Origin: Pedobacter segetis
GTDB taxonomy: Bacteria; Bacteroidota; Bacteroidia; Sphingobacteriales; Sphingobacteriaceae
DNA: 64,000 nt
NCBI RefSeq assembly: GCF_016623585.1
Contig: NZ_JAEHFY010000005.1
Span: 1 to 64,000, forward strand
Reading direction: 5' to 3'
A program made the translations under genes and the position numbers. Shown one piece after another: positions 60,094 to 64,000 of this stretch. The notes beneath the pieces were generated by a model that was not told the origin of the DNA, searched no databases, and was given only the letters and a program-made list of their open reading frames with translations. The first letter of the stretch is position 1. Each line of letters opens with the position of its first letter.

Positions 60094-60843
60094 ATGGCCA
60101 ATTTGGTAATTGATGTTGGTAACAGCGCTAATAAGATAGCCGTTTTTGATAATGATGTGATCATCCATCAAGTTACCTCTCTGTTGCCTTTACAAAAAGA
60201 TATAGAAAATTTAAAAGCTTTATTTCCCATTAAAAGCCTCATTATTTCTTCTGTTAAAAACGATAGTGATTTGATCGATGAAGACCTTACCACAGACTTT
60301 AACTACATCAAATTTAATAATGGCACAAAAATACCGATCAATAATCAGTACAAAAGCCCCAAAAGTTTAGGTTTGGATAGGTTAGCGGCAGTGATTGGTG
60401 CAAAAAGTATTTACCCCAACCAAAATGTTTTAACAATTGATGCCGGCACCTGTATCACTTATGATTTTATAGACGAAAAGGCAAATTATTACGGAGGGAG
60501 TATCTCACCGGGCATAAACATGAGGTTAAAAGCAATGAATCATTTTACGGCCAAACTGCCCCTAGTACATTTTGAGCCAACCTTTGATAAAGAATTTGGC
60601 GATGATAGCAATTCTTCTATGCTATCGGGGGTAATAAACGGCTTGCTTTATGAAGTAGAAGGTTTTATTAAAAATCACTTAAAAAAATACCCCACGTTAA
60701 AAATTATACTTTGCGGGGGCGATGCAACGTTTTTTGATACAAGATTTAAAAACAGCATCTTTGCACACTTAATTTTACACGAGCCTTTTTTGGTTCTAAA
60801 AGGTTTAAACACGGTTGTTAAATATCAGCATGATCATAATTAA
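60094..60843 (+). CDS. coaX: Type III pantothenate kinase
   Basis: The 249-residue CoaX has the phosphate loop IDVGNSANKIAVF, GLDRLAAVIGA, the acidic TIDAGTCITYDFID and GGSISPGINMRLKAMNHFTAKLP. It phosphorylates pantothenate, the first step to CoA, and is unrelated to CoaA. It overlaps the next gene by 14 bases. Confidence 0.94.
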   Translation: MANLVIDVGNSANKIAVFDNDVIIHQVTSLLPLQKDIENLKALFPIKSLIISSVKNDSDLIDEDLTTDFNYIKFNNGTKIPINNQYKSPKSLGLDRLAAVIGAKSIYPNQNVLTIDAGTCITYDFIDEKANYYGGSISPGINMRLKAMNHFTAKLPLVHFEPTFDKEFGDDSNSSMLSGVINGLLYEVEGFIKNHLKKYPTLKIILCGGDATFFDTRFKNSIFAHLILHEPFLVLKGLNTVVKYQHDHN

Positions 60844-62116
60844 AAAATATACGCTCGCATTATCGTTTATAATGGCTTTAGCTGGCGGTGCAATGGCACA
60901 ATCCACTACCAGTTCTCCATATTCTAAATACGGCATAGGAAATTTGAAAGGGAGCTATCTTCCTCAAAACAAGGCAATGGGAAACTTAGCGTATGGCATA
61001 AGTAGTTTTGGCGGTTATCAAAACATAAATATATCTAACCCCGCATCTTACTCTAAGATAAGGCTTACCGTGTTTGATGTTGGTGCCAACGCCGATTTCC
61101 AAAATTTAAACAAGGGGAATGCTTCAGAAAAAAACTTTAACTCTTCTCTAAACCATCTCATATTTGGAGTACCGGTTACAAAAAAATCGGCTCTAAGCTT
61201 TGGCATTTTACCTTATAGCAACCTGGGATATGAATTTATAAACAAAACCACCGTAGATACTTTTGCGGTTAATCAAATTTATAGAGGAGAAGGCGGCTTA
61301 ACAAAAGCTTACCTAGGCTATGGCTTTGATATTGGCAAACACCTAAGCTTAGGCGTTAACATGAGCTACCTTTTTGGTAATCTAAAACAAACAAGGGCGG
61401 CAGAATATACCAACTATGTAGGTTTTTTAAACTCCAAAACAGAAGAGAACAATGCGGTTGGCGGTCTCGATTTTGATTTTGGCGCACAGTACATAACCGT
61501 ATTAGGTAAAAAAACCAGGTTAACCATTGGCTATACCGGTGGAGTAAAAACCCAACTCAAAACAAAATTTACCCAATTAACAAGCAGGTATAATTTAAAC
61601 TCGGGTTCAGAAACACGGGTAGATAGTACCAATTTTAAAAATGAAGTTGGCGGAAAAATTACCCTGCCCGCCAACCATAACTTTGGTTTTAGTATAGAAA
61701 AGTATAATAAATGGTTAATTGGTGCCGATTTTAGAACTGCGCAATGGTCTCAATTTACCAAAAATGGTTCTGGCCAAGGGCTAAACAACACTTATGGTTT
61801 CTCTGTTGGCGGGCAGATCACACCTGATATCAATGCGGTAACCAATTACTTAAAATTGATAGATTATAGGTTTGGCATCAATTACGACAAAACGTATGTT
61901 AACATCAACAACACAAATATTGATGTAAAGTCTTTAAATTTTGGGTTTGGGTTTCCGCTAGTCTCCTCTAGGTCTGCTTTCTACAAAATAAATTTCACAA
62001 CAGAGATCGGTAAAAGGGGCACATTGAACAACAATCTTGTTAAAGAGAATTTTTATAACTTTTCTATCGGGTTTACCATTAACGATAAGTGGTTCCAGAA
62101 ATATAAATACGATTGA
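60830..62116 (+). CDS. Putative outer-membrane barrel protein
   Basis: The 428-residue protein has a signal peptide (MIIIKKYTLALSFIMALAGGAMAQ). The mature part is rich in Gly/Asn/Tyr with alternating strands (SPYSKYGIGNLKGSYLPQNKAMGNLAYGISS, LSFGILPYSNLGYEF, LSLGVNMSYLFGN, RLTIGYTGGVKTQLKTKF), as in FadL-like barrels of Bacteroidota. It lies between coaX and lptC. A role in envelope transport next to the LPS export gene is inference. Confidence 0.75.
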   Translation: MIIIKKYTLALSFIMALAGGAMAQSTTSSPYSKYGIGNLKGSYLPQNKAMGNLAYGISSFGGYQNINISNPASYSKIRLTVFDVGANADFQNLNKGNASEKNFNSSLNHLIFGVPVTKKSALSFGILPYSNLGYEFINKTTVDTFAVNQIYRGEGGLTKAYLGYGFDIGKHLSLGVNMSYLFGNLKQTRAAEYTNYVGFLNSKTEENNAVGGLDFDFGAQYITVLGKKTRLTIGYTGGVKTQLKTKFTQLTSRYNLNSGSETRVDSTNFKNEVGGKITLPANHNFGFSIEKYNKWLIGADFRTAQWSQFTKNGSGQGLNNTYGFSVGGQITPDINAVTNYLKLIDYRFGINYDKTYVNINNTNIDVKSLNFGFGFPLVSSRSAFYKINFTTEIGKRGTLNNNLVKENFYNFSIGFTINDKWFQKYKYD

Positions 62117-62124
62117 TCCATTTG

Positions 62125-62700
62125 ATGAAACCTTCTCTAAAACTTTTGCCAATTTCGCTTCTGCTGATGATTTTTGCAGCCTGTGAGAATGATTTAAGCA
62201 AAGTTAAGGAAATAGAACTCAAACAAAATAAAGGCGATGTAGAGGTAACAAAGGGGGCGCAGATCATCTATAGCGATTCTGCTTACGTAAAAGCAAAATT
62301 GAATACCCCCATTCTTTATCACTATAAAACCGCCGCACCTTATTATGAGATGCCTAAGGGTATCGAGGTGCTTTTTTTCGATAAAAACCTTAAGCAAACC
62401 ACAAAAGTTACCTCTAATTATGCCATACAGAGAGAAAACCAAAAGATTATAGAACTTAAAAAACACGTGGTGGCAACCAACGCAGAAGGTAGTACTTTTG
62501 AGTCTGAAGAATTAATTTGGGACGAGAACACAAAAAAGTTTTATTCTAACTTACCGGTAACCATCACACTAAACAAAGGTTTGCCAACAGAAAAAGTAAT
62601 TCATGGGCCTGCTTTTTGGGCAAATGAAGATTTTAGTTATTATGAAATTACCAAAGGCGCCGGGGTTTTCAATTTTAAAGGCGATGCCATTAATCAATAG
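62125..62700 (+). CDS. lptC: LPS export protein LptC
   Basis: The 191-residue protein has a lipoprotein signal (LLPISLLLMIFAAC) and an LptC/LptA-like beta-jellyroll (KGDVEVTKGAQIIYSDSAYVKAKL, SNYAIQRENQKIIELKKHVVATNAEGSTFESEELIWDENTKKFYS). It passes LPS from LptBFG to LptA. ATG at 62125 gives a standard signal; an earlier TTG overlaps the previous gene. Confidence 0.9.
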   Translation: MKPSLKLLPISLLLMIFAACENDLSKVKEIELKQNKGDVEVTKGAQIIYSDSAYVKAKLNTPILYHYKTAAPYYEMPKGIEVLFFDKNLKQTTKVTSNYAIQRENQKIIELKKHVVATNAEGSTFESEELIWDENTKKFYSNLPVTITLNKGLPTEKVIHGPAFWANEDFSYYEITKGAGVFNFKGDAINQ

Positions 62701-62703
62701 CGA

Positions 62704-64000
62704 CTAATATTTTTCTAAATTTTCTTTTAGATCGCTAATATTTTTTATCCCGAGTTTTTCTACCTGCTTTCTCCTCATCATAATTGCATAGGTATTATTA
62801 AAACCGATAGGTTTTAACCATTTAATGCGATAGTTTTTGTTAAACTCTTGTTGTACGTAATCATAAACTTTTTCTTTATCGCCCATTATACCAGCAAAAA
62901 GCTTCGGCTTTTGAGGGAGTATTACCAATAAACCCGTACCCGTATATTCTGGATAAAAATCAATCTGTTTGTTGGTTAGCGCATCAAAGCAAATTTTAGT
63001 GCCACCTAAACCCGTTTTGGTTTCAACCTGCAAATCAGAATTACCCTCAATTAGCATTTTATACATTTGTGCCAAAATATACTGCTCACCAAATATTTTA
63101 GAGCCAATTTTAATTGTTGCCCCATTTCCGTTTCTTGGAGATTTGTATAATCCTTTCTCTATCAAAAATTCTTTGGCAACTTGTTCGGGCAATTGGTGCA
63201 AATAATCAACTTTATAATTCAAACTAGTCATGGTGCTATCATCAATTTTATTTGATAGAAGATTTAAGATCCTTTCTAAAGTTGGATTTTTATCCAACAC
63301 GTCTTGGTTAACTATTGGTGCGGCAAAATAAGGTGGAAAAATATTTTTATCGTCTTTTAAAGTAATTAAATCAAAAGCTTTTAACCGTCCATCGGTACTG
63401 TAACCACTAATTACATCCAGTTTCTTATCATAAGCAGCCTTGTACATTACCGCATCGCTAATCACAACCGTTCTTATTTTTAGACCATAAATTTTGCGCA
63501 AACCTATATCACCATCCTGCCTGCCCATAAATTCTGGGGTAAAACCCGCTAGCATTTTACCATCAAACGCAAGCGGTAAAAAATAAAAAGAAGAGCATAA
63601 AACAAAAAGAACGGGCAATAAAATTAAATGTGTTTTTAACTTTTTAAACCCGATACGTTGAACCTTAGATAATAAAAAATCGAAAGAAATAGCCAATAAT
63701 GCCGCTGGTATTGCACCGGCCAAGATCATATTGGTGTTATTTAAGGCAATGCCGCCAAAAATAAACTCGCCTAAACCGCCTGCAGCAATATAAGCCGCCA
63801 ATGTAGCCACACCTACATTTATTACGGTAGCGGTTCTTATTCCCGCCATGATCACAGGGAAAGCCAAAGGAAGTTCTACCTGCTTTAAAACTTGCCACTT
63901 ATTCATCCCCATTGCTTTGGCTGCCTCCAAAACCTCTGGCTCTATGTTTTTAATACCCGTATAAGTATTTCTGATGATTGGGAGCAAAGCATATAAAAAT
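62704..64000 (-). CDS. ABC permease fused to circularly permuted substrate-binding domain (partial)
   Basis: The gene runs off the right edge, so the N-terminal part is missing; the visible frame continues to 64000 with FLYALLPIIRNTYTG. The permease part has the EAA-like loop (EAAKAMGMNKWQVLKQVELPLAFPVIMAGIRTATVINVG) and helices of the OpuB/EgtU type. The binding domain follows in unusual order. First comes the usual second half (AGFTPEFMGRQDGDIGL, ISGYSTDGRLKAFDLI, FPPYFAAPIV). Then comes the usual first half (TIKIGSKIFGEQYILAQMY, DFYPEYTGTGLL, GFNNTYAIMM, ISDLKENLEKY). Likely cargo: betaine/choline or ergothioneine-like compounds; not proven. Confidence 0.88.
   Translation of the reverse strand, partial: FLYALLPIIRNTYTGIKNIEPEVLEAAKAMGMNKWQVLKQVELPLAFPVIMAGIRTATVINVGVATLAAYIAAGGLGEFIFGGIALNNTNMILAGAIPAALLAISFDFLLSKVQRIGFKKLKTHLILLPVLFVLCSSFYFLPLAFDGKMLAGFTPEFMGRQDGDIGLRKIYGLKIRTVVISDAVMYKAAYDKKLDVISGYSTDGRLKAFDLITLKDDKNIFPPYFAAPIVNQDVLDKNPTLERILNLLSNKIDDSTMTSLNYKVDYLHQLPEQVAKEFLIEKGLYKSPRNGNGATIKIGSKIFGEQYILAQMYKMLIEGNSDLQVETKTGLGGTKICFDALTNKQIDFYPEYTGTGLLVILPQKPKLFAGIMGDKEKVYDYVQQEFNKNYRIKWLKPIGFNNTYAIMMRRKQVEKLGIKNISDLKENLEKY

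Follow-up and report, generated by a model that had tools for sequence, protein, structure and literature searches.

EgtU, of the EgtUBC system of S. pneumoniae, is the closest described relative of the protein studied here; it is a permease with a C-terminal binding domain of cluster F-III, served by an ATPase from a partner gene. A. fulgidus ProX, OpuBC and OpuCC have the same cluster F-III pocket and are separate binding proteins, and the ATPase of OpuA carries CBS domains. According to the EgtU study, EgtU was described in cells without ergothioneine synthesis, and its binding domain, EgtUC, contacts the betaine head of ergothioneine through Y341, Y419, Y443, N339, K242, T296 and R379 (PMC9732360). 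The same study places lobe D1 at residues 233-331 and 445-506 and lobe D2 at 341-432, and assigns a four-tyrosine cage to AfProX and a tryptophan cage to OpuA and OpuAC (PMC9732360).

Circular permutation among glycine-betaine-binding proteins is reported in an earlier paper whose entries include 2b4l (OpuAC) and 1sw1 (A. fulgidus ProX) (PMC2395249), and the swapped-order topology is already known in OpuAC/OpuA. TpMglB-2 is another binding protein that is circularly permuted in nature, and its authors raise a link to membrane tethering; unlike the protein described below, it is a lipoprotein with a type I sugar-binding fold and belongs to a different family (PMC4990184). Our search of titles and the first lines of abstracts returned no description of the form reported here, a weak negative given that subscription papers lay mostly outside the search.

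A permease with a circularly permuted binding domain

The window, by which we mean the whole 64,000-nucleotide stretch of Pedobacter segetis contig NZ_JAEHFY010000005.1 (assembly GCF_016623585.1) that was analysed, ends inside a permease gene on the minus strand. The open reading frame occupies 62704-64000 in the window and runs on to contig position 64272 (62704-64272, 522 aa), where its ATG start lies beyond the window edge, so that the first 91 residues are missing from the window; the copy of this frame in the extracted locus is L003:6705-8273, minus strand, 522 aa. The chain opens with a BPD_transp_1 membrane domain (PF00528, residues 41-204, E 1.2e-24), of which the part within the window covers 63661-64000, and its last predicted membrane helix (residues 209-236, 63565-63648) ends a few residues from lobe D2. 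The C-half of the binding domain comes first (63142-63564), its residues 237-377 corresponding by phmmer to EgtUC chain positions 136-276 and including E247, R251, Y291 and Y315. A new linker of residues 378-387 (63112-63141), delimited as the gap between the two phmmer half-matches, connects what was the C-terminus with what was the N-terminus, and the N-half ends the chain (62722-63111; residues 388-517, equivalent by phmmer to EgtUC chain 9-134), bearing K392, F394, Y443, T446, F491, N493 and Y495. We refer to this arrangement as TMD-C-N.

Three kinds of comparison agree on the swap. The whole protein belongs significantly to Pfam family PF04069 (E 3.4e-57), in two pieces whose profile positions are not collinear: 115-256 match at 63160-63555 (E 1.4e-28), and 1-113 match at 62713-63120 (E 2.9e-27), downstream in the gene. 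Against solved structures, phmmer ranked S. pneumoniae EgtUC highest and aligned both of its halves in reverse order. In a permutation-aware BLAST, the domain as found had a match of at least 220 residues to none of 39 standard-order relatives (0/39), whereas with its halves restored to standard order it gave one such match to 39/39, outscoring the as-found domain against all 39; for a relative from Niallia, pieces of 118 and 91 bits became one match of 198 bits at 40% identity after reordering. The sequence-only reading had placed this protein in the OpuC/EgtU family, with the half containing R.DG, YSTDGR and FPPY first and the half containing KIGSK, YPEYTGTG and NTYA last, and the family placement, the order and the full-length matches after reordering all bear it out. 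The new termini that it proposed are also in place, since the protein ends in ISDLKENLEKY and KMLAGFTPEF follows the last membrane helix. The binding domain is thus confirmed as circularly permuted, its C-half standing before its N-half relative to EgtU and OpuBC. A. fulgidus ProX, OpuBC and OpuCC likewise differ from it in having the standard half order, as judged by phmmer alignment ranges. Pfam output consists of two adjacent half-matches, which makes the rearrangement invisible to automated annotation.

Distribution and origin of the permuted form

In the survey of homologues that had been called for, all 80 named loci match the Pedobacter segetis protein collinearly, from residue 1-3 to residue 518-521, and in all 80 the membrane domain is followed by the C-half and then the N-half; they are mostly from Mucilaginibacter and Pedobacter, with two from Parafilimonas and some from Bacteroidetes bins. 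The linker is 15 residues long in one of them and between 7 and 11 in the other 79. The TMD-C-N arrangement was found in 107 proteins in total, 105 of them distinct after two identical proteins were merged, and duplicate loci (L001, L002, L022-L031) were excluded from trees and residue counts. The permuted form was present in 17 of 61 genomes of a sample of the family itself, in 15 of 296 of a phylum sample, in 14 of 296 of a class sample, and in 5 of 58 genomes from a distant family, other genera of which have standard-order fusions; the family, phylum and class samples overlap, and whole-genome sampling covered Bacteroidota, other phyla being represented without it.

Two other fused arrangements were recovered. 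TMD-N-C, the order of EgtU, occurs in nine proteins (five from Bacillota, two from Fusobacteriota, one from a cyanobacterium and one from Qipengyuania) and in none of the order-checked Bacteroidota fusions, the G365 frame and two G366 frames lying outside that check; one of the two fused G366 frames, L171, has no half-match. N-C-TMD, in which an unpermuted binding domain stands ahead of the membrane domain, occurs in 23 proteins of Bacteroidota (L040-L061, L172), where the binding domain follows a signal-like start. These fusions resemble the permuted proteins in having the same three parts and the same cage. An alignment-based scan of the viral_contigs set confirmed no phage-borne permuted copy. 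The best plasmid match among those listed (60 of 1138 records, taken in even steps) is a standard-order Niallia protein, most of the others carrying no order check. One genome of the family sample (G020, locus L004) combines a permuted fusion with a binding protein of standard order that is encoded separately, in a frame of 290 aa.

When the membrane domain and the two halves are combined in one tree, the permuted proteins (18 rows) fall into a single group with bootstrap 95 and SH-aLRT 91, recovered in 96% of 200 bootstrap trees; a quick tree, drawn from 38 permuted rows, supports the group at 94. The careful tree used 45 of 73 rows, 11 of the 80 named loci entered the trees, the very long branch of L166 was kept out of the concatenated trees, and the midpoint root served drawing only. 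Within the concatenated tree the permuted group sits with TMD-N-C and separate-subunit systems, and the N-C-TMD fusions form a separate clade (100/100), so that descent from these fusions of the same phylum is not favoured. The tree thus supports the permuted proteins as one clade and the permuted form as probably of single origin; the evidence that cuts against one origin is a tree built on the membrane domain by itself, which does not settle the point and needs two changes. We therefore propose that a binding domain of the EgtU/OpuF/ProX type (cluster F-III) was permuted, probably once, in a Bacteroidota lineage. The simplest route would be a tandem duplication of the binding domain, after which the first copy lost its N-half and the second its C-half; intermediates with duplicated halves did not occur among the annotated loci.

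Predicted fold and membrane tether

The AlphaFold2 model of the binding domain (pLDDT 83.1, pTM 0.83) is a single two-lobed domain, and the lobes, hinge and aromatic cage appear to be rebuilt from the same parts, so that a ligand should still be able to close the cleft. Among PDB entries, the model aligns end to end with B. subtilis OpuAC (2b4m; model 14-293 with chain 12-272, Z 19.8, 244 residues, rmsd 3.4, 14% identity), while the other binding proteins listed reach Z 9.4 at most. EgtUC itself (7txk) is matched over one half only, at Z 9.4 and 43% identity (model 12-151 with residues 364-503), and Foldseek TM-scores by query length are 0.55-0.61 for OpuAC and 0.41-0.43 for EgtUC. An end-to-end match to OpuAC, set beside a match to only half of EgtUC, the nearer protein by sequence, leads us to conclude that an EgtU-type sequence here has the predicted chain topology of OpuA/OpuAC. 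Two different binding domains, one of the two outcomes named beforehand as refuting the permutation, are rejected by this one fold, collinear with OpuAC over model residues 14-293.

The prediction extends to the whole chain. The full-length structure alignment took in 48 of the 80 named loci, and the model is of a homologue from Pedobacter psychrophilus (L070), whose residue numbers equal those of the Pedobacter segetis protein minus one (pLDDT 78.8, pTM 0.65, weak around residues 162-180). Its best match is 7ahh, OpuA with a docked binding domain, over both domains (Z 20.2, 369 residues, rmsd 5.5), and its membrane domain matches those of OpuA and MetNI. Both the binding domain and the fused chain are therefore like OpuA of L. 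lactis and OpuAC of B. subtilis in predicted topology, although identity in the structural alignments is only 14-19%.

By the EgtUC lobe limits, the permutation break falls at about EgtUC residue 364, inside D2, which moves the entry point of the membrane tether from D1, as in EgtU, to D2, in line with the altered tethering that had been anticipated from the order of the motifs. In the L070 model the first strand (239-243) begins within four residues of the end of the last membrane helix (208-235), which makes the tether into D2 short; the helix would thus lead through a few residues into D2, as in OpuA. Two copies of the permuted chain and two copies of the ATPase encoded upstream would be expected to form the working importer. 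As the pore should be a symmetric dimer, placing D2 or D1 over its own subunit would be equivalent, and the permutation may have been nearly neutral.

These relatives amount to a natural experiment on the tethering needs of a binding domain fused to an ABC importer, with the tether in D1 (EgtU), the binding domain ahead of the membrane domain (N-C-TMD) or the tether in D2 (permuted). Three tether arrangements make the required pairing of lobes with pore subunits directly testable, and they show how such binding domains can be re-tethered.

A conserved pocket

Pocket residues were mapped through the phmmer alignment to EgtUC. E247, R251, Y291, Y315, K392, T446, N493 and Y495 are present in all 105 distinct permuted proteins, and the cage and carboxylate positions of EgtUC (N339, Y341, Y419, Y443, K242, T296 and R379) are each kept in 105/105, as are E375 and T275. 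The cage positions so mapped are Tyr and Asn, the permuted protein sharing the four-tyrosine cage of AfProX, and it differs from OpuA and OpuAC in having tyrosines where these have tryptophans.

The permuted proteins do not keep the ergothioneine determinants G244, F293 and Y337 of EgtUC. The first position is F in 100 of the 105 (F394 in the Pedobacter segetis protein) and Q in the other five, the second is Y in all 105 (Y443), and the third is F in all 105 (F491). The same residues stand at these three sites in 23/23 N-C-TMD fusions. In the EgtU paper, F/Y/F at these sites is the glycine-betaine pattern of AfProX and not the ergothioneine one (PMC9732360).

An ergothioneine gene row

In 74 of the 80 named loci, the ATPase, the permuted permease, egtB and egtD follow one another on one strand, with gene starts taken from the longest ORF. 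Of the 77 loci in which egtB shares the strand of the permease, 73 have a gap of -4 to +8 bp between the two genes, and the ATPase adjoins the permuted gene in 74 of 80, lies farther off in three and was not found in three. Sixty-four loci extend 3.5 kb or more upstream and 2.5 kb or more downstream, and 63 of them contain both egtB and egtD; the sole exception is L070, the nearest named relative, with neither gene in its flanks. Of the genes given to NCBIfam, four of four EgtB genes from four loci exceed the TIGR03440 cut-off and three of four EgtD genes exceed that of the histidine methyltransferase model TIGR03438, the gene of L103 falling just below. Among distant families, L064, L068 and L069 have egtB and egtD beside the permuted gene, L063 and L168 showed egtD only, and the fetched flanks of the divergent loci L062, L065, L066, L067, L169 and L170 hold neither; in the genomes of L169 and L170, egtD lies about 6 kb away. 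The permuted importer is thus usually encoded in an ergothioneine operon, an association new here and one that separates it from EgtU.

The association also holds at genome level. In the family sample, egtD occurs in 17/17 permuted genomes and 13/44 others (Fisher p 2e-7, shared ancestry ignored), lying within about 3 kb of the permuted gene in 12 of the 17 and on another contig in five (G000, G020, G040, G050, G055). It was found in 12/12 permuted genomes outside this family, and in the phylum sample in 15/15 permuted genomes against 77/281 others (p 1e-8, shared ancestry ignored; matches below 1e-45, ten weak matches with E above 1e-45 not being counted). The genomes of N-C-TMD fusions have egtD in 22 of 23, and the short flanks of three of these 23 loci contain an egtB-like gene. 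In the Pedobacter segetis genome (G000), egtB and egtD sit as a pair on contig C8 (L174, C8:5957-6874), at a distance from the transporter, and the row common elsewhere is thus broken up in this genome.

The ATPase directly upstream of the Pedobacter segetis permease (319 aa) overlaps the permease start. Its closest NCBIfam model is the proV subfamily, with a score under that model's cut-off, and at E up to 0.001 PF00005 is its sole Pfam domain, with no CBS domain match; by Pfam it therefore shows the ABC domain only, unlike OpuA. Seventy of the 80 named loci (for example L103:1654-3039 and L077:1661-3046) have a pyridine-nucleotide-disulfide oxidoreductase upstream of the permease and on its strand; in 67 of the 70 the distance to the permease is 800-1200 bp, a spacing that leaves room for the ATPase in between. 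Its closest NCBIfam models, below cut-off, include the FAD-containing oxidoreductase PRK06370, and we regard it as a candidate ergothioneine disulfide reductase. Three Lactobacillales plasmid loci of the EgtU type carry a distant relative of this oxidoreductase (26-27% identity).

Interpretation and alternative explanations

The best explanation of these results, to which we give a probability of roughly 0.6, is an ABC importer with a permuted cluster F-III binding domain tethered via D2, most likely serving ergothioneine or a related histidine betaine. The substrate would most likely be ergothioneine or another histidine betaine such as hercynine, in cells that also carry the synthesis genes. 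The importer would work like EgtU, and both join a permease to a cluster F-III domain with 44-45% identity in the C-half and common cage and carboxylate residues. It is nevertheless not filed as EgtU, on account of its half order and the three ergothioneine determinants that it lacks, nor as OpuA, despite the predicted OpuA topology, because the cage and the ATPase differ. A fuller account, in which an EgtU relative independently re-created the OpuA topology and became the uptake arm of the ergothioneine system in producers, encoded in a row of FAD oxidoreductase, ATPase, permuted permease, egtB and egtD with the oxidoreductase as candidate ergothioneine disulfide reductase, is more tentative and falls just short of an even chance. 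Either way, an importer is linked to ergothioneine in Bacteroidota, with uptake and synthesis apparently encoded together.

Its pocket residues make glycine betaine the main rival substrate. The same permuted importer would then take up glycine betaine or another small quaternary amine for osmoprotection, and the ergothioneine genes would share a stress unit with it and not a substrate. The AfProX-type pocket, with Y443 and F491 in 105/105 and F394 in 100/105 (PMC9732360), speaks for this, and the off-contig egtD of 5/17 family genomes cuts against ergothioneine, as do the flanks of L070 and of the six divergent loci that hold neither egtB nor egtD; we nonetheless consider it rather unlikely, as egtB and egtD share the gene row in 74/80 named loci and egtD is present in 15/15 permuted genomes of the phylum sample. 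Moreover, the EgtU study reports a contribution to ergothioneine uptake, at lower affinity, by H. pylori relatives that do not belong to the SpEgtU subcluster (PMC9732360), so the three pocket residues are compatible with ergothioneine.

It is less probable still that the permutation is not independent of OpuAC, its topology having been inherited from a lineage that links EgtU-type and OpuAC-type domains. The structural match to OpuAC end to end, and to OpuA including the membrane domain, would fit such inheritance, but identity to OpuAC is only 14-18%, compared with 44-45% between the C-half and EgtUC and 40% between the reordered domain and the standard-order Niallia relative; in addition, OpuAC is absent among the 37 sequences that phmmer lists, where OpuA appears for its membrane domain only. 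An assembly artefact, or a broken gene in which the order serves no function, deserves hardly any credence: shortened frames do occur, in L096 (465 aa, one of the 80 named loci, cut at the start of the membrane domain) and in G013 of the family sample (472 aa, cut at the same place), but the gene studied here offers nothing in its favour, all 80 named loci are collinear and the cage residues are constant in 105/105 distinct proteins. A rearrangement artefact, the other outcome named beforehand as refuting, is accordingly rejected, and the permuted importer stands as our preferred reading.

Other genes around the transporter

On the plus strand, Pfam assigns an LptC-related protein at 62113-62700 and a type III pantothenate kinase at 60094-60843, and no functional link of either to the transporter is apparent. 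Outside the window, at L003:15004-15637, a Gp49-like gene overlaps a helix-turn-helix gene (Pfam), which suggests a toxin-antitoxin pair of the HigB/HigA type.
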